Assembly: GCA_030141605.1 (NCBI GenBank)
Contig: JAQGDQ010000225.1
Span: forward strand, 62,001 to 126,000
Length of the DNA: 64,000 nt
Reading direction: 5' to 3'
DNA from: Tubiluchus corallicola
Taxonomy: Eukaryota > Priapulida > Priapulimorpha > Priapulimorphida > Tubiluchidae
Part shown: positions 29,885-50,329 of the stretch, piece after piece
Position numbering within the stretch: the stretch's first letter is position 1
Layout: each line of letters begins with the position of its first letter
Made by a program: the position numbers and the translations under genes
Notes under the pieces: model-generated
Databases searched by the model: none
Told to the model about the DNA's origin: nothing
Seen by the model: only the letters and a program-made list of their open reading frames with translations

Positions 29885-32800
29885 CTAGGCGACCAAGTCT
29901 TCCGCTGGTGTCACCTCCTCCTCCTCCTTCTCCTCTGAAACTTTTACAAGCTTCTCATTTTTTTCCTTCTCTTTTCTCTCTTGTATTCGCCTGCAGCTCA
30001 ACCATCCGGCTACCGTCCCTGGCAGGATCTTGTATTTCTCAACTGCTGCAAGAATTGAGTTCTCTAAAGCAAATTTAGCCACTTCCTGCCGGACGGCTAC
30101 CGGAAACACCTTTCTCTTTCCGAAAATGTTGTTGTCCATGTCGTAGTCGTAGAATTTATTGTTGACCCAAGTTAAGAGAGTGGACGGTGGTATCTGGAAC
30201 GTGTCCGAGGCTTCCATTATGCTGTGGTCAACGGCATAGCGACTCGCAGAAACACGTACCTTCCACGGATACGTGCGCCTGCGGAATCCATGTCGCTTCT
30301 TTCCAGGAATACGTGTCCTTGGAGATGCTGCTCCAGCTTCGGGACGTCTCAGTTTAAACACCAATTTCAAAGAGTCATCTCTCTGTATAACTTTATCTAC
30401 AACGAGTTTTTTCTGCTTTGGCAGAGATGTGATGTGACTAAACTCATCATTGTGCGACAGCAGCTCGCTATGCTGGCTGTCGTCACCGACAGGCTTCCTT
30501 CGCTTCTTTGTTTTTTCTTTACCATTAGTCACCATATCTGTCTCATATTGTACAGGTACGTGACAACTTGGAGTCTCTGCAGCATCAAAGTGCTCAACAG
30601 ATCCAACAGCTTTTCCATCAACATTCACAGTTTCTACCTTGTTTTTTGGCATGTTTCTTAAAACCGCATTCTCTCCTGTTTCTTGTTCCCCTTCAAGCGA
30701 TCTTCTTGTATCATTCATTTTCTCCTGAGTGTCTTCCAAACTTGACATTTTAGATTCTTCAAAGCTGGCCGAGGAAGTTGACCTTGAAAGACTGTCCAGA
30801 TCGCTCAAGTCGCTTCTTTCATAGGGCAACGTTGAGATGCTGTCAGGACTATGACACTTACTGTCGGTCTCATCAATGAGATGTTTTGACTTTTTCGTAA
30901 AATTTGTATTGCTGCTTCGCTCAGATGTCACCCGACTGTTTAGCAATATGTTCTGTGTTTCACTTGACTTTGACATTTTAGCTGCTGCGTCTCTTCGTCG
31001 TCTCCACAAGTACAGTGTGGGATAAGAAATGCCCATGTGTCTAGACGCAGCCAAAGGACCATGTTGGTCAGCATATCGACAGGCCTCTATTTTGAAATTC
31101 TCCGAATATTTATTACCAACATGTCCAAGTCTGACTCGACGACGGACAAATTTTCTGTTCACCTTGGTGCACTTTTTGGGTGATGACAAACTGATTTTCT
31201 TTTCAGTACTCGTTAAAGATTTCAAAGTGGCACTTACTTCTTTTGGTGATGGCTTTTTCCCATGATGCTTCTGGTACACCCACCGTGAAATAATTCGAGG
31301 AAAAACACCAAAGACTGAAGCTGCGCTGTGGATTCCCTTCAGTAAAGTGTAGTTAATTACATTTTCTTGAAAAGTATCAGTGTAATCTTCGTTATCACAC
31401 AAAGAAAGCTCGTCATTGTACGATGTTTTTAGCCACGGTTTGTGTAATAACTTTTTACAGTGTGGTCCAGCATTCAAACCCAGTTTTTTAATAACTTTAA
31501 TTTTTGGCGACTTTGTATGGCAATCATATTTGTTTTTGACTTCATCTTTATCTAATTCATGCACAGTTGGCTTGTTTTGTGGTAGCTGGTCGGTTTCTTT
31601 AATGCGAGGAGGACTGGAAAGAATTTTTAATAAAAGTGGTTTATTTGGAGAGGACAGTCGCACGTGAATGGGGGTGCCGGTACGAGGGTCACGTATTTTC
31701 AAGGTGTAAGTGTTTAAACTCTGTGCATTTTGCTCGATTTTCATGCAAGGGGAAGGCAAATTAGTGTCGTTAACACTAGATTTTGGTATTTGCACTAAAA
31801 GAGGAAGAGAATTATTTTTGACAGAACCACTTTTACTGGTGGATGCTGAAGAATGACATTCTTTCTGGCCGCTCGACAAGTTAGAATTGCCTTTGCCAGG
31901 TGTTGGCATTTTAAATGACTGAACCTTTGGCATTTTAGAAAGCAAAGAAAATAAACTTTCGCTGGGCTTCCCTCCACTGGAGGGTACAAAAGTTTGAGGT
32001 TTATTTTGTTTGTTGTTCATCATATGTGTCGTTGCAAGGGTTGTTGTCAGAGGCGCCTCAGATTTCTTGCAAGATGGAAGGCGTAGCTTCCCCTTTGGCA
32101 CCACTATAAATTTTGGTTCAAAGTTCTTGTCTTCAACTCTGTATACGTCTTTATTCATATCTGTCACTGTACCTTTGCAAGCAAACTTTACCGGGGAGAT
32201 TTTTATCGGACTGCACTTAACTCGGCCTTGCTGATTAGAAATCGGTGAGCTGTTTGAATCCAGTCGTACATTTCCTAATTTATTAAGCTCGTTTGCTCCG
32301 TACACAGCCACAACTTTTGGTGAGAAGCGAACATCGCTTGTACTTTTTGGCTTGATATCAGTAGCATTCTTGCCTGCAACATTGGCTACAGTAACTGCAC
32401 ACATTTTCAACCGTTTCTCATTTGCAAGCATTGAATGAGTAACATTTGGTTTTAACGGAGACAAGGGAGGTAAAGGTTTTGCAATATTAAACCGGATAAC
32501 ATTGGGATGAGTCACATGTGCCATTTTCAGGAGTGCCCCGGCTGCATCCAGCTGCTTACAATACATGTTGTGTTGTGCATTAACTACTTTACTTCCCAAA
32601 TCGTGGTTCATGCTCTCTGATTTTAACTTTGCCGAAACCGATTGTTCTGTTGCACTTGCAGAAGATGCAGCGGCTGGTTTTCGAGTGGGAAACAACGAAC
32701 TAAGAACTTTGTTTATAGTCATGTCTACAGAGTCTAAAGTGCGTGAAGGTCCAGTTGACAGGTATGATGTCTCTGGGTTCTTAAGGTAATTTTTGCGACA

Positions 32801-35800
32801 CTTTTCGTAACACAATATACTGTTTTTCGTAACATAGTCACAGTTATCAATTACTTCTTTACTCCATAAGCTGACAACCCGGTTTATGGAAATGTCGATC
32901 GGATCAAGTTGGTTTGTTCCAGCCTCAACATCATTTACAAGTCTTTGAACTACAGCTTTGACAACTTTATCAACTGCTTCAGAAGCTTGCGATGCAGAAT
33001 CATCAAATTTGTCTATTGTAGCAGATGAAATTTGACCAGCATTTTTCTGATAACATATTTCATCGTGTTGCTCTTTGTGGTGTCTTCCAAATGACTTGCG
33101 AAATGGCTTCAAAATGCATTGAGAGGTTACAGAAACAAGGCTAATAAGCTCTTCTAATAACATCTTAATGTCGTGTTCATCTGAGACAACAGAAAATTTT
33201 TCATTGTTCTTTGAAGGACAATTATGATTTCTGTGAGGCGATTTCAGAGAAACAGTGTCAGGAACAAAGTCCATTATTTCTTTGGCATTTTTTGAATTCT
33301 CAAAAACACATGAAGAACAGAATTGAGAATCAGAGATCATTGCAGTTTCTGAAGCCCCATCCATTTGGTATTTGTCGGCATCATCAATAATTTTCCTGTC
33401 ATTTTTTGACTGGCAGATTTCAACAGCACTAGAGGACAATGCAGCTTCAGGAACAGAACTCACTACATCTTTTGATGCAGTTTTTTTAATATCCATCATT
33501 TCTTCGTTACTCGCAGAGTACCAGATTTTGATAGCGTCAGAAACATTCTCAGCAGTAATCGTTTGGGAAACAGAAACATTGTCAGCTGCACTTTTGGTTT
33601 CAGATGTGTTACTATTAGCAAACATTTGTTTGTCAATCCTTTGGTGACAAATCTCAGCCATACCTGGGGGGGACACCTCAGAAAGAATGATACTAGGAAC
33701 ACTGTACACTACATCTTCTGACATGATACTATGATTGGCACTAACCTTTCCGTCAAATGTATTTGAATGCAAAGTGCTATCCATACATGACAGCGTGTTA
33801 GGAACAGTTTTAGAAACTGATTCCACTCTGTTTTCTAATATACTGTCAGCAGTGCAATTATTCCTGTCTATAATTGCTTCCTCATTGAATGCCAAACCAG
33901 ATTGTTTGGTATTAGGAGTTGGAGATAACTTCCAAGGAAATGCAAGGCTTTTGCAAACGTTGCTTAAGACTTTTTCTAATGTATCCTTGACGAGCCCCTC
34001 AAGGATTGCGCTGTTTACTGGTGAATACTCACTGCTGACTGGCCTAGCAACAGTGCTTGGATCAAATGAAACATTTTCGACCACAGTGTCTAGCAATAGC
34101 CCCAGCACATGTCGAACTGAGTATTTATCCTCAGAAATCACTTTCAAATTTTTTTGATTCGTCAAGTCACTTGATGGCAGAATACTTGCATTATTCCACC
34201 TTTTCATTGTCCACTTGTCATGCAGACTGGAGCTCTCTGCACTTCTGTGGACAAGTCCCGTTCTTCGGCGAACATGACCCATGGCTTGCGCATCCGTCCT
34301 ACTAATTTGACTTGCAGGACTAATGCTCGGCAGGGGGCACAGATCTAAGCCTCTTAAAAATTTACATTTGTGGTGTTCTACAGTTGCACTTGGTGTGCAG
34401 CAGCCTTGCACTGACAAGCTTTCTTGTTTCTTTACTCTCGTGTATGTCTTCTGATTTTGTTTTTCAGATTTCGTTTCTTTTGTAGGTGCAACTTTGGTCC
34501 CTCTGGCTTCGGTCCACCACAGGTGGCGACGTTTCTTTGGCCTTAGGCTGTAACGATTGTTGTCAACATCTGAAATTCAGCAAAAATATTGCTTAAATTC
34601 CTTAAATTAAGTCTGGCATTAATCAGTGCTTTGTTTTGCTCCTAGAAATACTCTAGGAAATGTTGCATAAGCCAAACAAGAAGTAATAAAATGCAAAAAA
34701 CCTTCACCTTGCCATGTTATCAAGTTAGTTTAGTCAATTTTTTGGAGCTGCTGGGCACAATTGCCATCATATTATTTGACAGCTTAAAGACAAACAACTT
34801 CAACTTTGTGTACTGTGAATTTAGTAATACATTTAAATCTTAAAATTTCTCTCAAAGTAAATAAGAAATATTACTCTAGCTTACCAAGTGTTGAATTTTG
34901 CAGCACGTTGCTGACAGGATACAACTTCTTAATATGGTTTGACTGCTGCCACTTACGAACAAGATCCATATAACCTAAAAGAAACTAATGTTACAGCATT
35001 TACACTAGTCAGCTTGACAGTTGACACATTTGCTCCAAAACGCTGCTTACACAATCATAAAAAAGCGACAACGATATATACAAAATTGGATGTTTTCGAA
35101 AACATGAAAACAACAAAGACATTAAGCCAAGTGCAAAAAAGCTACAAATAACAAAAAACTAAAAACTGATAAACAATTCCAACTATGTAAGATACTTACA
35201 ATTGCTTATACACTCCATCTGCTTGCATGCTCGCTCAATGATGCCGTCCACAAGGGAAGCAACAAAGAGTTTTGCCGAAGATGCTGAAATATAATTCAAA
35301 GCCACAATTACATTCGTTACAAAAAATTCAATTCAGATTATGATACTTAAATTCATAAAAAAACATCAGAGGTTTTTACACTTTGCTGATTTTACCATTG
35401 TTGCACTAAATTCACTTATCTAAATTTCACTTATGACTATTTCTAGTTAGAACAAATGTTGGCTTAATGTACAATATAAATTTTAATTAAATGCTGTTTA
35501 AGTCTAATACCATTTTCAACAATATCACAAGCACAGTTACTAAGTTTTGCATTTTGAAAATTAGTACGAGACCTCTACACTAGGAAAATCTAGTAAAGTA
35601 GTTGGTTTGCAAGCGTTATAACATGTAGTGAATCTTCTCTTTTTAAATCAGTAATCTCCTGAAAACGGCTTCTATTCTTGCCCGATTCAGATCCTGTACA
35701 TCCACAACACAAAAAAATGTTTAGCTTGAGTATCAGATGACTTGCTTGGGACAAGTAATTACAAATACTTGAATAAATGTCCTTCATACCTTCTTGGTAG

Positions 35801-38800
35801 GGAATGACATCTGATCGTTCACGGAAGCCCAAATCATGGGATATGATGATGTCGCGATTACCGATCTCAGCTTCCGTCACGTAATCAAGCAGTCTAGGGG
35901 AACGGTACGCGGACGAACTTCCGCAGTCGATCATGTGGGAAACTGAAAAAGAACGGAGTGTGGAGTTTTCTTTAACCATTAATAATCAGACAGGAAAACG
36001 AAGAGAATATGAATGAAAAAATTTTGTTGTTCACAAGCAAAATATTTTGAGTGGTTAGCAAATAAAATGAGACAAAGGAATTGTGTTTTTATTAAACATT
36101 ATTAACTTACCTTCATTTTCAATAACTATTCATAATAGAGAATACATATTTCTTCATATGTAAAATACATTAGCTACAAATTAAGAAGCAATGTTTTTCC
36201 TAGTCATACAATCTGACAAAACTAACTGCATGAACTTTTAAACAAAATAAATAAAGGTCTTTGAAGGTCTCAGCTACTAGAATTAGGGATGCCATTTTGT
36301 ACAATGTTGATAGTCAAATCGAAGTTAAAAACTATTGTATCTTCTGCCAAACTATCGTATTTCCCGCTAAATTGCCCAAAACCCAAATTCACTACATACA
36401 CCAACAAATCATTGCACAATTATGTACTTAACAAGTAACTACAACACCAAAAAGTGGCATTAACAACTGTAAAGTAAAATTTATAATAACACAGTGAAAT
36501 TCCACTAATTTCTGTATGTGCAGAAATGCGACTCATCGTCTTTACCATGAGTATTCTTTTTTGAAATTACTGTTTTTTTTTCAGTAAATTGTGACCATTA
36601 CTGCGACCAGTGTGCTTCGGACTACAACAAAATCAAAATTCATTTACTTCCCAATGGTGAGTAATAACATTTTGAATGTTTTCAGTGCACAATTTTTACA
36701 AACTCATTTTTTTTGAATTACTGTATAATTATTGACTACCGCATAGTCTCTTTTTTCGGCAGCCTCAAATTATCGGATATCCTGATAATTATCGTATAAA
36801 CAGTAACACAGAGCAGAACATACCTAGTTTATTGCCGTTGCCATCCACAAAACCACACTGGCATTCAAACTGTGTCACCATGTGAGCAGGTTTCAGTCGA
36901 TTTGCAGACACAGTGCTGTCTGTCACATGACTTTTCACGACATGCTCGGTAAAAGCCGTCCCGCAGTTAGAGGTGTATCGGCACATTGGACACATGAGAT
37001 AGCGTCTAAATATAGTAGCAAAGATGTAACCCAATTGCAAAGCATTCACACACAAGACAAAGGATTTTGAGTTTCATTGCCACAAAGTAGTTCACAAATT
37101 TTAAAAACCACTTTTTCTTTGCTTTATAGTCAGGAATTGAGTATGTTAATGAAAAAAAAGTGTATGTTCAAGCAGGACCGTCTTAACAGCATTATGAGCA
37201 CCTAGGCAAGGCAGCGCACCGGCACTACTACACTACACACTACCTCACAACCACTCGCAGGAATAAACATAAATGGCCGACAAAAGTAAAGCAACAAGCA
37301 TTTATTGTACTGGTATCTCCAACAAAATCAGTGTTTAAACATTGAAAAGCATGCTGTACTGATTATTGCTATTAACTGTGAAATGATTTGAAGTGACGTT
37401 AACATATGCGTTTCTACATTATGTAGTGTACGAGATCCGTACACATAGTAAACACATAGATGCACGTGAGGTTGCAGAGGTGACAGTGATACTAAATCAG
37501 AGGCAAATGTCATTGTCCTCTTGTAACATAATAAGAAATATTTATAGATTACATTAGCATGGGGCCCGCGGGGAACTGCCCAGTGTGCCCATGCATTAAG
37601 ATGGTACTGTTTTCAAGCATCAGCAAGTACCAATGGCTGCTGGCTTACAGTGAAAATATGTTCACTAGTCAATATTTCCACACTGCACAGAAAATTCTTA
37701 ATTTACTTTTGTACCTTCAATGAACGAGAGAAAAAAGTAGCATTTTAAACAGTGCTAACATAATGGCTAGTTTAAATCACCTGAAATGATTTCTCATCTC
37801 CATTGGATAGTCACATTCTATACAGCAGTAGCCAAGCTGGGTGATAATTTGTAATCCAGTGTAGTCTAACCGAGGAGGTACGACGTTCAAACAGATTAGA
37901 GATTCTTCAGCAGAGGAGATGCCATCAGTTTCTCTCTCCTGTTCCAAATCCACAACTTCAAGTACAGAAACTTAAAAAAAGAAGCAATTTCATGCTAAAA
38001 TGTAACAGAAGAAACAGAAGGAACATGTAACAGAAGGGAAATCAAACACAGTTTTCATGACTGACGATGTGCCTAGTGAATTGACAAACAGCATAATCAA
38101 GTGTTCATTCCACATTCGTAACTAATTACAGGAGCATTTATTTGTTTGGTTTAAACTGTATTATTCAATGAGGAGCTAGAAAGCCCTCAGCAAAAGAGCA
38201 TAGTTGGCCCGATAAGATTGTTACACGTGGAACACACTGCAAAAAGTGTTTTCTGCTTTGATATGGATTTTAGTTTTCGCTTAAATTATACTAAATCTCA
38301 CTAATAAGAGTATCATAGTCATAATGCACTTGCAAATTACATCCATATGCAGACATACTCTATGCTTATTTTAACTAAAAATGTATTTTTGTATAGGCAC
38401 AGATTGCAATTTTAACCTAAAAGAACACTATACTAAATGTATGTGAAAAACATATGAAAAACTGTCGTAATGTGTGGGTATAACAGTATGTTTCTGATTG
38501 TTGCTATCTTCAAAGAAATCATGTCACTGGTGTATGTTGATCACATACACTTGAGTGGTGGGCATATTACAGAGCCTTGTTATATGCGAATCCTAAAAAA
38601 ATCGTAAAAAAATTCAAATCTGCACTAATTCAGCCCAAAATTTACAGTCTCCGAGCTTGAACCATATCCTATCCTTGTGCCAGGTATAAACTTCTTAATT
38701 TACACCAGACCCCAGAAAAAGTGGCGACAGACAGACGACCAGACACAACCAATAATCCTATAGCTGTTTGCTCAATGTCACGCTTGGCACACATGAAACG

Positions 38801-41800
38801 GAAAATATGACTTCAATGCAATCCTACCAAATTTTGTGGGCAATCCAAAAAATCGGTAAAGATACTTATTGAAATGCAATGATAAACCTTCCAGCAACAC
38901 CCTTTTGGGCTTTGTCTGAATCACTGATCAGATCAGCCATAACATTGCTAACCTTGTGGCAATTTAGGTTCGTCCTCTGACCAATTTCACTCATCAGGGA
39001 TAAACAAGTAGTTTTCTAAAACCGTGTTAAAACATTTAAAATGAAAAAGCTAAACAAAAAAGAAAAATGAAGGCAAAAGACATACTTGCGCCATCTTGTT
39101 CCGAGAGATTGCTGAATCCGTGAGAATTCGCTCTGTGGTGAGCCAAGTCAGTCGGCTTCACGAAAACTAGCTGACAACTGTCACAGCGCCTTACACTCTT
39201 ATTCAGGTGACTGTGCAAATGACGCACGTAATTCTGCTGCACAATGCGGAATGCACGCAAGCAGTACGGACACAGAACACTCTGACCATCTTTGTGAACC
39301 TGTAACATGGATAAAAATATTGAGGGTAATCAAATAAATACTAGATTGGCAAAAATCTGAGCATGCAGAGATCTGCTCATTAAAATTCTAGCTACCAGAG
39401 CCAGGTGAGCAAACTGCTTTATGTATATGTAAAATTTCCAGCTGTAGAGGCGAGCATTTTCTGCTAGAAAACATACTATTCCTGCAGTGAAACAATGCAT
39501 ACTATTCCTGTAGTCAAACAATGCATACCATTTCCGAGGACAAAAATGAATACTACTCCGGCAGTCAAACAATGCATACTAGTCCTATGGTCAATTAATT
39601 CATACTATTCCAGTGGTCAAACAATGCATACTATTCCAGCAATCGAACAATGCATACTATTCCAGTAGTCAAGCAATGTATACTGTTCCAGCAGTCAAAC
39701 TATGTATACTATTCCAGTGGTCAAACAATGTATACTGTTCCAGCAGTCAAACAATGCATACTATTCCGGCAGCCAAACAATTCACACTATTCCTGTGGTC
39801 AAACTAAACTCTTACTGTATTAAAATGATCCATCAAATCCTTATACAGAGCAGAGCGGAAATGACAAACGTCGCAGTGATATGGCATTTCGCCAGACACA
39901 TGCACTCGAGTTAGGTGCAAGCGTAAATCTTTCAATGAATCCATGTTCTTGGCACAAATCTTGCAAACTGTCGATGAACCAGGAGCATGTAACTGAAAAG
40001 TGAATAGCTGAATGAGATAATGGCAAATAACATATACCATAATGTACTTTAAAGTGTAATTATTACCATTTAAAATAAGCACAGTTGCTCATCGAAAAAG
40101 ACATGCTTGTATGAAGTTTTACATGACATCTTGGAAAACTGCTAGTTGTTGCAAGAAACACCCTGTCTTCACATGCAATCTTTTGTGCGAATTTTTTTTA
40201 TGCAAGCAGCCTAAAAATAAAACTATCACTTTGCAAACTTTGCTGAGAAAACTGTACGTCTTAACATGTTATTGGTTCCAACGAAATTGAACTGCTTTAC
40301 TGAAATATTGTATTTTTTAACAATTGCCATAACATTTGGATAAGCAAGCAACGCATACAAACAGTAATCTTAGTTCATCAATGACTACAGGCATCAGTGA
40401 AATTAAATGAGGCGGATAAATGTTGCCAACTCCAAAAGGTATACATGGAGCTTCAGTCGCCTGTGTTTGAGCTTTCCGTGTTAACTTAATGCTCTGAGGT
40501 CGAGTTTTGCAGCAAATGTTATTTGTTTTATTAGCAAGCATTAAAACAATGTTTCTGAGAAGACCAATTTCCCTAAGAATGGCAAAAGTCCATACTATCA
40601 TGTTTGGCAAAGACCTAATCTAATTGCATAGCACACTAAAGATACCTTCTTTTCACTTCGGGTTTTGCAGCATGGTTCAAAGAACAAAAACATAGGTGAA
40701 AAAAACTCACCTGATCAATGTGATTCTGCAGTTCAAAAGGTGTGCCGAACATGGCTTGACAGAAACGACAGGTGAGTAGATCTTCCAGCTCGTGAACGAA
40801 TGACATATCCCGCATCATGTGAGCTTTGTAGTGTCGCATCATGTGAAGGTTGTTCTTCAGGTTCTTTGTGCAGATGAAACACTTAAAATACAAACAAATT
40901 AGGCCCATTTCACAGTGAGAGCGCTCAAGGAAGAATGACGCATGGAATTGCTGTCAGAAAATCAGAAAATTTCCGATTTTTCTCGAAATCCCACGCAGCA
41001 AGAAAGTTCATTTTACAGCGAAACTACTCAGCTTTTTTCTGCGCATACAGTTAACTGCAGCTAGTTTGCAAGTTTTATACTGTATAACCATGTCTAAATT
41101 AAGTTACACTTATCTTATTTCTTATATACAAAGTAGAATTAATAATGCTAGTCAATGTAAAGTCAGACATGTTTGTCTTTTAGTAAAGTTCTACTAAGCA
41201 CTTCAAGATCTGAAAGCACACATACATATAAAATAAATTTAAGCATGCATTCTTTTTCTATTTCACGAATACAGCCATCAATGTTGCATCAATAAAACAT
41301 AAAATCGTCAGTCTGTTAATCTATCAATTGTTGTTTGCTAAATAATAAAGAAGTGATTGAATAGTCAAATTTAAGGCTGAATTCCATGCGAGGAAAAATG
41401 GAACATGCAGTATTTCTACTATGCGGCAAAATTTTTCATGAGGCGGATGCATAGCTTCTACACTGTAGCTGGAGGCATTTAACTCAAGGCCTCCCATACG
41501 AAAGCCCATGCCTTAAACTTGATTGTCAAACAGTTGAACGGCAGGAAAGGGGAACAATTGCAGTGTTTGCAGTATGCACCATTTTAGATCACATTTGATG
41601 CGTCTAGCTTCTAATGTTTGTAATTCAAGTTTCTTTAATCGACATAAATACAAATCATTTCCAAGGTTACAGTGCTCAAAAAGTCTTGTTGTAAAATATT
41701 GTTGAATTCTTCTAACATTATCGAAGTCTAAAGTGACCATACGAATGTGCAGTGTTTGAATGCTGCTTCGGAATTGTCAACTTTATTTTAGATATATGAA

Positions 41801-43741
41801 TGTAAAAATCTATTAGCATAAATCAATCAATCAAAGTTCATCAAATAAGTTTATTTAGCAATAATTGAAGCACTAACATACCCATAAAATACATAACATT
41901 TCCCTTTTTACTGTGACACTAAGTCAAAAAACTGTACCTTCATTTGCTCAAAATTCTGTATGCGATTGTACGCTCTTTGGTCTAACAACTGAAGGACTCT
42001 ATTGCCTTCTTGGTGCATGTAAGAATATATCAGAGGCTTCTTATCGAAATCTTGTGTCAATCCCGCTAAAACAATGAACAGCGAACATTGTTGCAATGTT
42101 GCAAACAAGCAAGTTATCTAAGATTTTCAAAAAGTGAAACCATATTAAACAAGATTTATGCAGCGCAGCTAGTAATTTTGGGATTTAATAAAATTCAGTG
42201 TATTTTGAAGCACCTAAAGTACTTTTTTGTCTGCTGTCCAGGTAACAAAATACCTGTACATTTTCGTTAGGCATTGTAGACGTATGTACAGAAATTGGAA
42301 GTTTAGTTTTCTTCCAAAGGATGCAGTGGGTTGGAAATTAAGTTTTTAACAAAAACGGAAACTAGTCCCAAATAGCATGGTGTAAGTTCACTGTATTTTG
42401 ATTCATCCAATAGCATTTATGGACTGCTTCCAAATCTCCAGATACTGCCTTGGCCTGTGTTAAAACTCTTAAAGGAAAACCGGACGATTGTTTAGACTCA
42501 ATATCTTATTTTAATTTACTGTCCAGAATATACATTTTCTTGCCTATAAAAGTTAGCAATTGTTTCTTATATTTGAATAATTAGTTTACAAAGTTAATTA
42601 AGGGCAATCCAACACAGCTACAGCTTAAGTCAGAAACTAACCACAGTTTGTGCGATGGCAGGCATCTTCCCTTGCACATCAAGCACATTTGCATAAATGT
42701 TACAATACTGTTTAAATGCGTGATGTCACGAAAATGGGCTCTACGTCATATTATGCCAGAAACTAACACGACAGTTCATGATCATGGTTAACACGGTGCG
42801 ACAAAAAGAACAAAAATGCACCATTGCCAATCTTAGTAGATTCACTAAGCCATGCATAGCTTTGAAAGTTTAACAAAATTTGAGTATCCGAGGCAATTAT
42901 TCTTTAATCTAAGCTTCGATTTAAAAAAAGGTATTGTAGTTTTCAATATTTTAGTGCATTCTTTAATCTGAACTAATGTTTACATCCGGTTTTCCTTTAA
43001 GAAATTAGCAGAGACACGATTAGGTTGAATGGCTCACAATGCAAAGAAAAAACAATTCTCTAAGGCTGAGAGTTAGGGCATGGCAGCGAGTTGCATACTT
43101 CCCCAGTCAGAAATACATCATTTTCATTACTGAAGTTTTGGGGTTAACATAATCGATTGTTAATCCATCACTAAAACGGTTATCATAATAGTTTATGTAA
43201 GCATACTATTAAATCTGTTTTAAAAGCAGTAGCTGCAGCACCAAACAATAAACAAATCCCATTTGCAGATATACAATGTAACTAAAACATTTACATGTTT
43301 ATTTAGCATTGCTGTACCTTGTTCGTTGTTCTTTGCTTGGATCCCCAAATATTGCTGCCTCCTCAACTGCCATTGTCTGCTGGAAATCTTCTTTCTTTTT
43401 TTCCTGACATCTGATATCATAAAAACAATGACATGATTATGCAAGAACCAAATTTACATGGCCACTATCAAGAATTTATAGTCGGTACTGTACATAGCAA
43501 GACACAGGGAATCAAGCAATAACATATCATCAATTTTATTAATGAAGTTCAATAGCTAAGTTTATCTCCTACTGATTTGTTATCACAAGACTCGTAAAAC
43601 ACAGCAATTACAGGATTTGAAATTAACGTACGTACTGTGCTTCAAACTAGAGTCCAGTCTAGGCCTCTTCTTCACAGTCTCCACCACATAACAAGATGGC
43701 ATTATCCTTTTCTTAGCTATACGGCGAGCACGGTGATCCAT
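29885..43741 (-). CDS. POGZ-like multi-zinc-finger protein with four C-terminal helix-turn-helix repeats
   Basis: Twelve exons, transcribed right to left: 43636-43741, 43318-43410, 41938-42065, 40711-40881, 39816-39992, 39086-39299, 37781-37970, 36824-37005, 35790-35942, 35200-35283, 34885-34974, 29885-34569 (2090 aa; every phase agrees). The ATG is preceded two codons upstream by an in-frame TAA. Basic stretches (RRIAKKR, RKKRKK) suggest nuclear import. C2H2 fingers have Cys/His at 110/113/126/130, 147/150/163/168, 176/179/192/197, 206/209/222/227, 235/238/252/256, 264/267/280/285 and 365/368/381/386, with partial ones near 346 and 408. Their order and spacing (MPYHCDVCHFRSALY, VLCPYCLRAF, CPMCRYTSNC) match human POGZ. 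The Ser/Thr/Lys-rich last exon is mostly disordered. It then has four HTH units at 1592-1637, 1681-1727, 1959-2008 and 2014-2061. POGZ binds chromatin and HP1; a nuclear DNA-binding role is inferred. The DDE domain of POGZ is absent. ZNF280 is the other related family. Confidence 0.85.
39472..39806. repeat. 26 bp minisatellite next to exon 5 of the POGZ-like gene
   Basis: About 13 imperfect copies of a 26 bp unit of the type CATACTATTCCAGTGGTCAA plus ACAATG. Copy spacing is 26 at the left edge. The array lies in the intron between exons 5 and 6 and stops about 10 bases from the minus-strand splice donor of exon 5 (GT at 39815). Confidence 0.9.
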
Positions 43742-44734: not shown

Positions 44735-45960
44735 CCTCATGGTAGAAACCGCAGAAGGTGCTAGTGCTCGGAAGTGATCTCTAGAAGTGATTTCTCTGAT
44801 ATCCGGTGGAAGTTTGTTCCACAGACATATTGCTCAGGGTTGAAGGAGTATAAAAAAATATTGACTCTTGCTGATGGCTGAACAAATTTGTTGTTATCTT
44901 TGAGAGATGGGGTAATGTAAGTTGGTAAATTTATACCTATCTTGTTATGCACTATATCATGAAAGATGTATAGTACCGTTTGTCAGCGTCTAATTTCTAG
45001 TGTTTCCCACCCGAGTTCGGAGATCATCCTAGATACTTCAGCATCTCTGGTATATTCATTTCGTACAAATCGTGCTGCATTTCGCTGGACTTGCTCGATG
45101 TGCTTGATGTCAGTAAATGTGTATGGATTCCAGGCTGCAATACCATATTCTAGTTTGGGCCCGACCAGGGCTTGATTTGCTCTTTCTTTGACTTGTTGGT
45201 GACATGGATGTAGTGTCCTGCGAATGACATGAAGTGTCCTGGTTGTACGAGTGACAATTTTTTGGCTGTGCTCACCCCAAAACGAAGACTTGTGCTGATG
45301 GTAATGCCCAGGTATGGGTGTGAAGGAACATTCTCTAGGATTTTGTCTCCCATGCTGTAAGGAAAGTAATTTGGGTTTTTCTTTTGAGAAATAGGTAGGA
45401 TTTTGCATTTATCAATGTTAAAGTCCAGTTTTCCCACATAATTGTATCTGTGAGAGATCTTGTTGTAGAATATGGTGACCTTGATTACTCAATATAGGTC
45501 AATAGAGAATCGAGTCGTCAGCAAATAGTCGGATGTTAGATGATATATTGTCACCGATGTCATTTATATAGAGGACGAATAAAGACGGTCTAAGGACTGA
45601 GTACCATTGACAGAGACCTTCTGCGTTCACTCAGAAAGAAAAGATTTTACCCATTTCAGCATATGACCTCTGATACCACAGAATACGAGCTTTGTTAAGA
45701 GGCGCTGATGTGGGACCCGGTCGAAAGCTTTGCTGAAGTCAAGCAAGACAGTATCAACCTGGCAGACTTTATTGCCTTGTTTGTCATTTAAAGCTAATGT
45801 CCAGTCACGTGTTGAGAAGATCAGCTGAGTTAAACATGAAAAACGCGAACGAAAACCGTGTTGGACCCCCTTAATAATGTTATGGTTATCAAGATGTTTG
45901 TTGACATGGGAGAGGCAGATATGCTCCGTTATTTTACAGGCTATGCATGTTAATGAGATC
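44735..45960 (-). mobile_element. LINE reverse-transcriptase fragment (Jockey/CR1-like)
   Basis: On the minus strand, with several frameshifts, the reverse-transcriptase landmarks appear in order. They are HGFRSRFSCLTQLI near 45840, LLDFSKAFDRVPHQRLL near 45730, LFADDSILY (catalytic DD) near 45515, HPYLGITIS near 45320, LEYGIAAWNPY near 45140 and RNAARFVRNEY near 45070. A LPPDIREITS tail lies near 44800. The 5' ORF1/endonuclease part is missing, so this is a typical 5'-truncated and dead insertion. It is less decayed than the one at 11110. Confidence 0.85.
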
Positions 45961-45985
45961 GGTCTTGCATTTCAAAACATCAGCA

Positions 45986-49150: not shown

Positions 49151-50329
49151 TCACAGATGTTTAAAATTATGCTTAACAAAGAGAATTCCTTTCACGGATT
49201 CAACATGCAACTTGTTTCTTTCCTTTGTCCACTGGCTTTGCATAAGTGAAAACACTCGTTTAGCGTTAGCGTTGTGTGAAGGAATCGCAAAGAAAAATTC
49301 TGCAAGAAGTTCTGAGAAGCATTCCTCGTTCTTGCAACTGCTGAAGTACTTCACCCATCTCTCATGAGCCAATAACTTGTTGAAGTCGTCATCTTTACAA
49401 TTTGCTTCAACAAATTTCTTCAAATTGCACAGCTGATCAAAACATTTGGATTCGTCAACATGCACGCCATTTTCACTCAGATAGTAAACAGTTACTTCAA
49501 CGTCATTCCAAATCGGGATTTCGGTTAGAGTCATCCACGCAAATCTGGTGAACTCCTCCAACGGCTGAGTCCACATTATGAGGTATTCCAGACATGTACT
49601 GTACAGTGTGACCACTTGTGAACAGAAAGCATCACAACGGTCATCCAGGCCATCTTGACGCAACTTTCTCAACAGTTCCTTCACCTTCAGTGACATAAAG
49701 CTGTCTTGTGCACAGCACTGCAGAACAGATTTAAGGCAGTTCATAATCTCTAGCAACGAGTTGTTTTCACATTCAATTTCTTCAATGTGAGAATGAATTA
49801 TGTGCATCAGAGAATGCACATGCCAAAGGTAAGCTTCACTGAGATCATCTTCAAAGAACTTCCGTAATACAGCGGGCGATTTCTCCTGAGACAAAAAGTA
49901 AGACTTCAATGCTGGAAATATTTGCAACATACGGTTGGAATGCCTGGCAACAATGACAGCCATCGGGTTTTGCTGTGATAAAGGAGCTGACGATATTCCA
50001 ATTCAACAAATTCGCAGTATTCTTTCAGATGTTAGTCGTTAGCGAATATGCCGAGCATCGACAGCGGTGTGACCCATAGTGATGTGCGCATCGCTTACTT
50101 TTGTTCAGTAAACACGTACACAAAGCTTTTACAAGGGTTGCATTTTGAGATGTTAGCAACATCTTGTATTGAAAATTAACAAGCTTTTCTTTGTCTCGTA
50201 CGCCTCTGCAGTTGGAAACGTCCGTACATACGGATCGAGGCAAAACCCGGACAAACTGACGATTTTTGAAAACCCACCCGGCCCAAAAAGAGGACATGTC
50301 CGGGGAAACCCGGACGTATGGTAACCCTA
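49151..50329 (-). mobile_element. hAT transposon remnant with transposase C-terminal half
   Basis: A 270-codon uninterrupted minus-strand frame (49963-49151, ATG start) contains FPALKSYFLS, then LSEAYLWHVHSLM. Near its end is a hAT dimerisation block, FFFAIPSHNANAKRVFSLMQ followed by WTKERNKLHVESVKGIL. The N-terminal BED finger and the first catalytic region are not present upstream, so the transposase is incomplete. About 365 bp upstream the sequence ends, on the minus strand, TAGGGTTACCATACGTCC (from 50329), a hAT-like terminal motif. I could not find the matching end on the left. It is a 5'-deleted element or, less likely, a domesticated fragment. Confidence 0.75.

Follow-up and report, generated by a model that had tools for sequence, protein, structure and literature searches.

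The window, by which we mean the whole 64,000-nucleotide stretch of Tubiluchus corallicola DNA that was analysed, carries on its minus strand a gene whose product we read as a POGZ-family chromatin factor without a transposase, in which pairs of helix-turn-helix (HTH) units would bind DNA instead; we give this reading a probability of about two in three. Its evidence comes from the zinc fingers in the first part of the predicted protein, from four mutually related HTH units in its last exon, from the likeness of these units to the first HTH of pogo-type transposases in the same genome, and from a second POGZ-like gene on another contig (C1395:234262-261727), which has one BrkDBD-like HTH, split by an intron, in front of its zinc fingers.

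The gene runs from position 43741 to 29885 and was assembled by hand as 12 exons with a product of 2090 amino acids (Table 1). The 2090-residue model of the first-pass annotation was thereby reproduced: all 11 introns are GT-AG, the phases are consistent and the single stop is terminal, although the chain was joined by eye and phase helped to guide the joining, which makes the phase agreement partly a matter of choice, above all for exons 1 to 3. The last exon corresponds to a 1563-codon open frame at 29885-34576. That this exon belongs to another gene, the chimera being an artefact of gene modelling, strikes us as very improbable; the hand assembly from genomic DNA alone and the lack of a convincing counterpart of exons 9 to 11 in the C1395 gene speak for it, whereas phase fits at 11 of 11 junctions and a long exon behind the C1395 fingers begins like exon 12, with a score of 67 against a maximum of 55 in 200 shuffles. 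This long exon is assigned to the C1395 gene by that likeness, and the exons joining it to the fingers lie outside the model. The intron that separates exons 5 and 6 holds a 26-bp minisatellite of 12.8 copies (39472-39804), part of the reverse transcriptase (RVT_1, 48 bits) from a LINE-like element lies upstream of the gene at 45630-45971 on the minus strand, and a 283-codon minus-strand frame at 49154-50002 has a sub-threshold match to the hAT dimerisation domain (17.6 bits against a cut-off of 21.4).

Table 1. Exons of the window gene and HTH units of its product; hhalign percentages are those of each unit taken singly against three HTHs that adjoin DDE_1 matches.
Feature	Position in window	Strand	Basis
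Exon 1, putative start codon at 43741	43636..43741	-	ATG, GT donor, phase suits exon 2
Exon 2	43318..43410	-	AG/GT, phase 1 to 1
Exon 3	41938..42065	-	AG/GT, phase 1 to 0
Exon 4, C2H2 fingers	40711..40881	-	48% identity over 58 residues with second-gene exon P9
Exon 5, C2H2 fingers	39816..39992	-	C2H2 matches; counterpart in second gene
Exon 6, C2H2 fingers	39086..39299	-	C2H2 matches
Exon 7, zf-POGZ double finger, first half	37781..37970	-	PF25429 at residues 345-382, 40.1 bits; exon boundary at residue 360
Exon 8, zf-POGZ double finger, second half	36824..37005	-	zf-POGZ match
Exon 9	35790..35942	-	Gene model
Exon 10	35200..35283	-	Gene model
Exon 11	34885..34974	-	Gene model
Exon 12, last, holds all four HTH units	29885..34569	-	Open frame of 1563 codons; start resembles long exon of second gene
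HTH unit 1, residues 1591-1632	31262..31387	-	Leave-one-out profile; hhalign 77.7% alone; fold not confident
HTH unit 2, residues 1683-1724	30986..31111	-	HTH_Tnp_1 match; hhalign 95.9% alone; three predicted helices
HTH unit 3, residues 1962-2003	30149..30274	-	Leave-one-out profile; hhalign 85.5% alone; fold not confident; charge -1
HTH unit 4, residues 2017-2058	29984..30109	-	Leave-one-out profile; hhalign 57.0% alone; three predicted helices

The first-pass annotation had described the fingers as POGZ-like, and this is borne out by the zf-POGZ double finger (PF25429), which spans the junction of exons 7 and 8 and reaches 40.1 bits against a Pfam cut-off of 27; the gene is assigned to the POGZ family by this domain. 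Pfam also lists C2H2-type matches in the protein, and the order of the finger exons is common to the second POGZ-like gene. The fingers may resemble those of human POGZ finger by finger. When the genome (343.5 Mb, 2344 contigs) was searched with zf-POGZ, three matches appeared at E up to 1: the window gene above the cut-off, with 27.3 bits for the exon 8 part, and C1395 and C1686 below it, with 20.8 and 19.6 bits, the matching frame on C1686 being by eye an ordinary C2H2 exon. A PDB search with the window-gene fingers returned 58 sequences, which by name are general C2H2 proteins, none of them called POGZ.

A transposase domain had been reported missing, and indeed neither DDE_1 nor HTH_Tnp_Tc5 is listed for the window protein by Pfam at E up to 10. 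None of the 97 DDE_1 matches in the genome (E up to 0.001) falls on the contig of the window gene (C442) or on C1395, in a search that may overlook weak matches. Pfam up to E=10 likewise lists no BTB domain in residues 1-555 or in the 1563-codon frame, and neither a PxVxL HP1 motif nor an RGRP-type AT-hook core was found in the window protein.

The claim of four related units in the C-terminal part held up well. The units begin with Y or F at residues 1592, 1684, 1963 and 2018; the copies of 42 residues are those placed in Table 1, and the four align without gaps across 50 columns. Profiles built from the other three units recover units 1 to 4 at scores of 25.7, 24.7, 45.3 and 33.7, where the next-best window of the protein reaches at most 0.0 and the shuffle maximum is 10.3. 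In all six pairs of units the partner ranks first to third among 2028 windows of the protein, and 0 or 1 of 20,000 shuffles does as well; the unit windows were chosen by the first-pass annotation, so that these shuffle counts are no blind test; the leave-one-out scan, which covers the entire protein, carries more weight. No fifth copy turned up when both strands of the 64 kb were scanned without gaps, though a copy split by an intron could escape such a scan. The description of the units as a tandem array of four did not survive: the spacings of 92, 279 and 55 residues make two pairs, 279 residues apart, in place of a tight array. In the long linker between the pairs serine is the commonest residue, followed by glutamate and lysine.

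Profile comparison shows the four units to be homologous to the first HTH of the pogo-type transposases that this genome carries. Of the nine transposase-type HTH loci fetched, seven came from the nine BrkDBD matches in the genome (those on C2044 and C206 remained outside the set) and two from similarity searches; L013 (same HTH as L012), L015 (a near copy of L014), L020 (a copy of L019) and L017 (longer spacing) were left out, and five were used in the alignments and the tree. These are C492, C1757 and C350, which pass the BrkDBD cut-off, C2279, which is below it, and C1719, which is not listed for BrkDBD. Against all five the units align with hhalign at 97.8% (score 57.1; 100 column shuffles at most 13.8), and without unit 2 at 96.4% (score 44.1; 100 shuffles at most 22.2, one of them at 46% probability). 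Only C492, C1757 and C1719 adjoin a DDE_1 match, and the test was therefore repeated with these three: the four units gave 97.9% (score 58.2; 50 column shuffles at most 12.5), and the set without unit 2 gave 97.0% (score 48.3; 50 column shuffles at most 13.9). Taken singly (percentages in Table 1), units 1 to 4 scored 26.7, 41.5, 28.9 and 23.6, against maxima of 12.9, 12.2, 11.5 and 16.7 in 50 shuffles. The nearest genomic relative of unit 2 (C1719:121431-121583, E=0.0057, 35% identity) stands on the same strand as, and just before, a DDE_1 match at 120700-121101, and a genome search with units 3 and 4 as query matched only the window gene itself. One frame on C492 holds BrkDBD, HTH_Tnp_Tc5 and DDE_1 together, a combination that a published survey describes for Passer, the family from which POGZ and POGK derive (PMC7386202).

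The first-pass annotation had called the units HTHs of the Brinker, Psq and CENP-B type, and this stands in part: it is upheld by the profile homology to the first HTH of transposases and by a match to Drosophila Brinker, while no BrkDBD or HTH_psq match came from Pfam. The Brinker match (PDB 2glo, E=0.0067, 22 aligned residues) ranked second in a PDB search with a joint profile of ten HTHs, made from the units, the transposase HTHs and the second-gene unit; the top match was a repetitive lectin, aligned along about 13 residues of each repeat, which we rejected as a repeat artefact. The four-unit profile alone found weak matches only, CENP-B among them at E=0.92, and the one match from an initial PDB search with 571 amino acids was meaningless. 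In Pfam, unit 2 matches HTH_Tnp_1 at 24.2 bits within the whole frame, 0.1 bit above the cut-off of 24.1, and at 23.6 bits, below the cut-off, when taken alone; units 1 and 4 have no listed HTH family, and those listed for unit 3 are all below threshold. Up to E=10 no unit has a listed BrkDBD (PF09607) match, HTH_psq (PF05225) is not listed for the window protein, and at E up to 1 the window gene is absent from the 9 BrkDBD and the 94 HTH_psq matches in the genome. Among the latter, a 1024-codon frame on the minus strand at C166:96787-97632 has two HTH_psq matches that barely pass, at 21.4 and 21.3 bits (E about 0.09), and is possibly a second multi-HTH protein, and the match at C1736:121656-121769, also on the minus strand, lies within an unusually long open frame of 4802 codons.

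Structure prediction gave a divided answer on the HTH fold. Single-sequence AlphaFold models show three helices for unit 2 (block pLDDT 83-94 over model residues 111-150) and for unit 4 (80-88 over model residues 71-110), these blocks covering the greater part of each unit, and the fold of units 1 and 3 is not confident, with block pLDDT below 50. Foldseek returned weak matches throughout for both models (best E 0.83 and 0.87). The VIA-align neighbours are largely homeodomains and other HTHs, with a few unrelated rows, at Z of 3.1-5.6 (maxima 5.6 and 5.0), a range that is common by the tool's own account; these neighbours fit a homeodomain-like HTH and are no proof of one.

It is conceivable that the units belong to old POGZ-like proteins as a general module for binding chromatin or protein and have lost DNA binding, an alternative that we regard as unlikely. 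The unconfident fold of units 1 and 3, the net charge of -1 on unit 3 and the distance between units are what it would explain, and unit 3 may, given its charge, indeed be without DNA binding. Against it stand the tryptophan near the end of the HTH, which is invariant in the four units and the transposase HTHs, the charge of +3 to +4 on units 1, 2 and 4, and the RRRR behind this tryptophan in unit 2.

In the second POGZ-like gene, finger exons are 43-46% identical to window exons 4 and 5, in the same order; the counterparts of exons 7 and 8 are 34% identical (E about 1e-5), and those of exon 6 are weak (E 0.004-0.005), with stops inside the aligned stretch. A scan of 60 kb around the gene, on both strands, with the profile of the units gave one match, at 15.0 against -2.0 for the next. 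It lies in an exon at 236186-236325 that is in phase with its neighbours, by eye, across eight junctions between 234262 and the first finger exon (244809). Once spliced, this unit reaches 26.5 with the window units, where 3000 shuffles stayed at or below -0.2, and 40.2 with the transposase-type HTHs; the scan found no HTH after the fingers up to 293000. A DLDMECEEEDL stretch in the first modelled exon may resemble the start of human POGZ. A suspected likeness of exon P6 to an RFX winged helix was dropped, with nothing listed by Pfam up to E=1. At about 240939-242043 a tandem repeat of roughly 30 bp (by eye) keeps a frame open for 394 codons, a trap for gene finders.

The history of the HTHs can be sketched from this one genome. 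A local duplication seems to lie behind units 3 and 4: in a tree of ten HTHs (44 columns) they pair with support of 90.4/89, and unit 2 falls beside the transposase-type HTHs (85.7/47), the remaining supports being low. Unit 2 scores 59.0 against the transposase-type HTHs and 26.0 against its sister units, and the C1395 unit is like it in scoring higher against the former than it does with the window units; for units 3 and 4 the order is reversed, and for unit 1 the two scores differ little (33.6 and 27.3). Local duplication thus explains one pair, and the earlier suggestion that the HTH multiplied from one copy finds no support as a single fourfold event.

Two histories had been offered at first pass, loss of a DDE domain and a state before its capture, and they do not separate here; the C1395 gene nevertheless favours a gene that never had a DDE, and adds a third option, that HTHs were taken up repeatedly by themselves. 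Its contig has no listed DDE_1 match and its HTH sits at the other end of the protein, which favours HTH uptake without DDE over DDE loss, a history that is disfavoured for the window gene. We consider it quite unlikely that the ancestor had a vertebrate-type POGZ end (HTH, Tc5 HTH and DDE), lost the DDE and Tc5 parts and multiplied the first HTH. The homology of the units to the transposase first HTH, and the transposase-like unit 2, would suit such an ancestor; the absence of a listed DDE_1 match on the contigs of both genes, the placing of POGZ recruitment at the lobe-finned fishes in a vertebrate-centred survey (PMC7386202), and the failure of the units to form one clade (at weak support over 44 columns) do not.

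Our preferred reading is that of a POGZ-family protein that binds DNA by HTHs in the transposase's stead. POGZ is a major human autism gene, and its product binds HP1 through a zinc finger; Row, its fly orthologue, is a zinc-finger protein not known to have a DDE. The C2H2 and zf-POGZ half of the window protein would probably serve, like its counterparts in POGZ and Row, as an adaptor for chromatin and HP1, and the two pairs of pogo/Brinker-type HTHs in the C-terminal half would contact DNA, perhaps jointly, along a long or clustered site, a mode that may also apply to the four HTHs of Pipsqueak. The source of the HTHs would be the first HTH of pogo/Passer-type transposases, or an ancestor common to both; the units may have arrived without the Tc5 HTH and the DDE catalytic domain or have outlived the complete loss of both, and the pair of units 3 and 4 would then have arisen by local duplication. 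An HP1-linked chromatin factor anchored to DNA by its HTHs would be the most likely mode of action.

Several known systems come close to this protein. Vertebrate POGZ, like the window protein, has a zf-POGZ double finger and C2H2 fingers before a transposon-type DNA-binding end, which in POGZ comprises HTH_Tnp_Tc5 and DDE_1 (PMC7386202), and here four BrkDBD-like HTHs, with neither domain listed. The pogo/Passer-type transposases of this genome (C492, C1757 and C1719) share with it the homologous first HTH, but theirs adjoins DDE_1, with a Tc5 HTH as well on C492, and the window gene has no listed match to either. Brinker (BrkDBD, PDB 2glo) shares the HTH class, as judged from its second rank with the joint profile (E=0.0067); it has one HTH and is not known to have a zf-POGZ. 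Drosophila Row resembles the window protein as a zinc-finger protein without a known DDE that we take to be POGZ-related, but it is reported to bind DNA through AT-hooks, of which no RGRP-type core was found here. Row recruits HP1c (PMC9078007). Drosophila Pipsqueak has four C-terminal HTHs and recognises (GA)n (PMC10379775); the window protein is alike in its four C-terminal HTHs, two of them with a confident predicted fold, and differs by its zinc fingers, by the absence of a listed HTH_psq match and by the arrangement in two pairs set apart, where Pipsqueak carries a BTB domain and an HTH type of its own.

A POGZ-related gene with four transposase-type HTHs and no transposase suggests that this family took up DNA-binding parts of transposons more than once. 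Transcription factors of animals have acquired domains of the HTH_psq and CENP-B types on many occasions (PMC10027918), and such capture is thus a known process. As a broader and distinctly tentative extension, POGZ-type zinc-finger genes might be repeated acceptors of the pogo/Passer DNA-binding module, which in this genome sits C-terminally in one gene, with four copies, and before the fingers in another, with one, each time without the catalytic domain and independently of the POGZ-DDE fusion of vertebrates, with the multi-HTH protein reading a long composite site, perhaps in transposon-end remnants. Among the matches listed in the open-licence literature we found no POGZ-family protein with four HTHs and no HTH arrays in invertebrate POGZ, which says little about all that is in print; the published account of the transposase-derived end of POGZ is vertebrate-centred (PMC7386202). 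The window and C1395 genes make the choice between an HTH acquired first with DDE later, and repeated uptake, testable through invertebrate orthologues, and the window protein is a second, apparently convergent, case of the four-C-terminal-HTH design of Pipsqueak.
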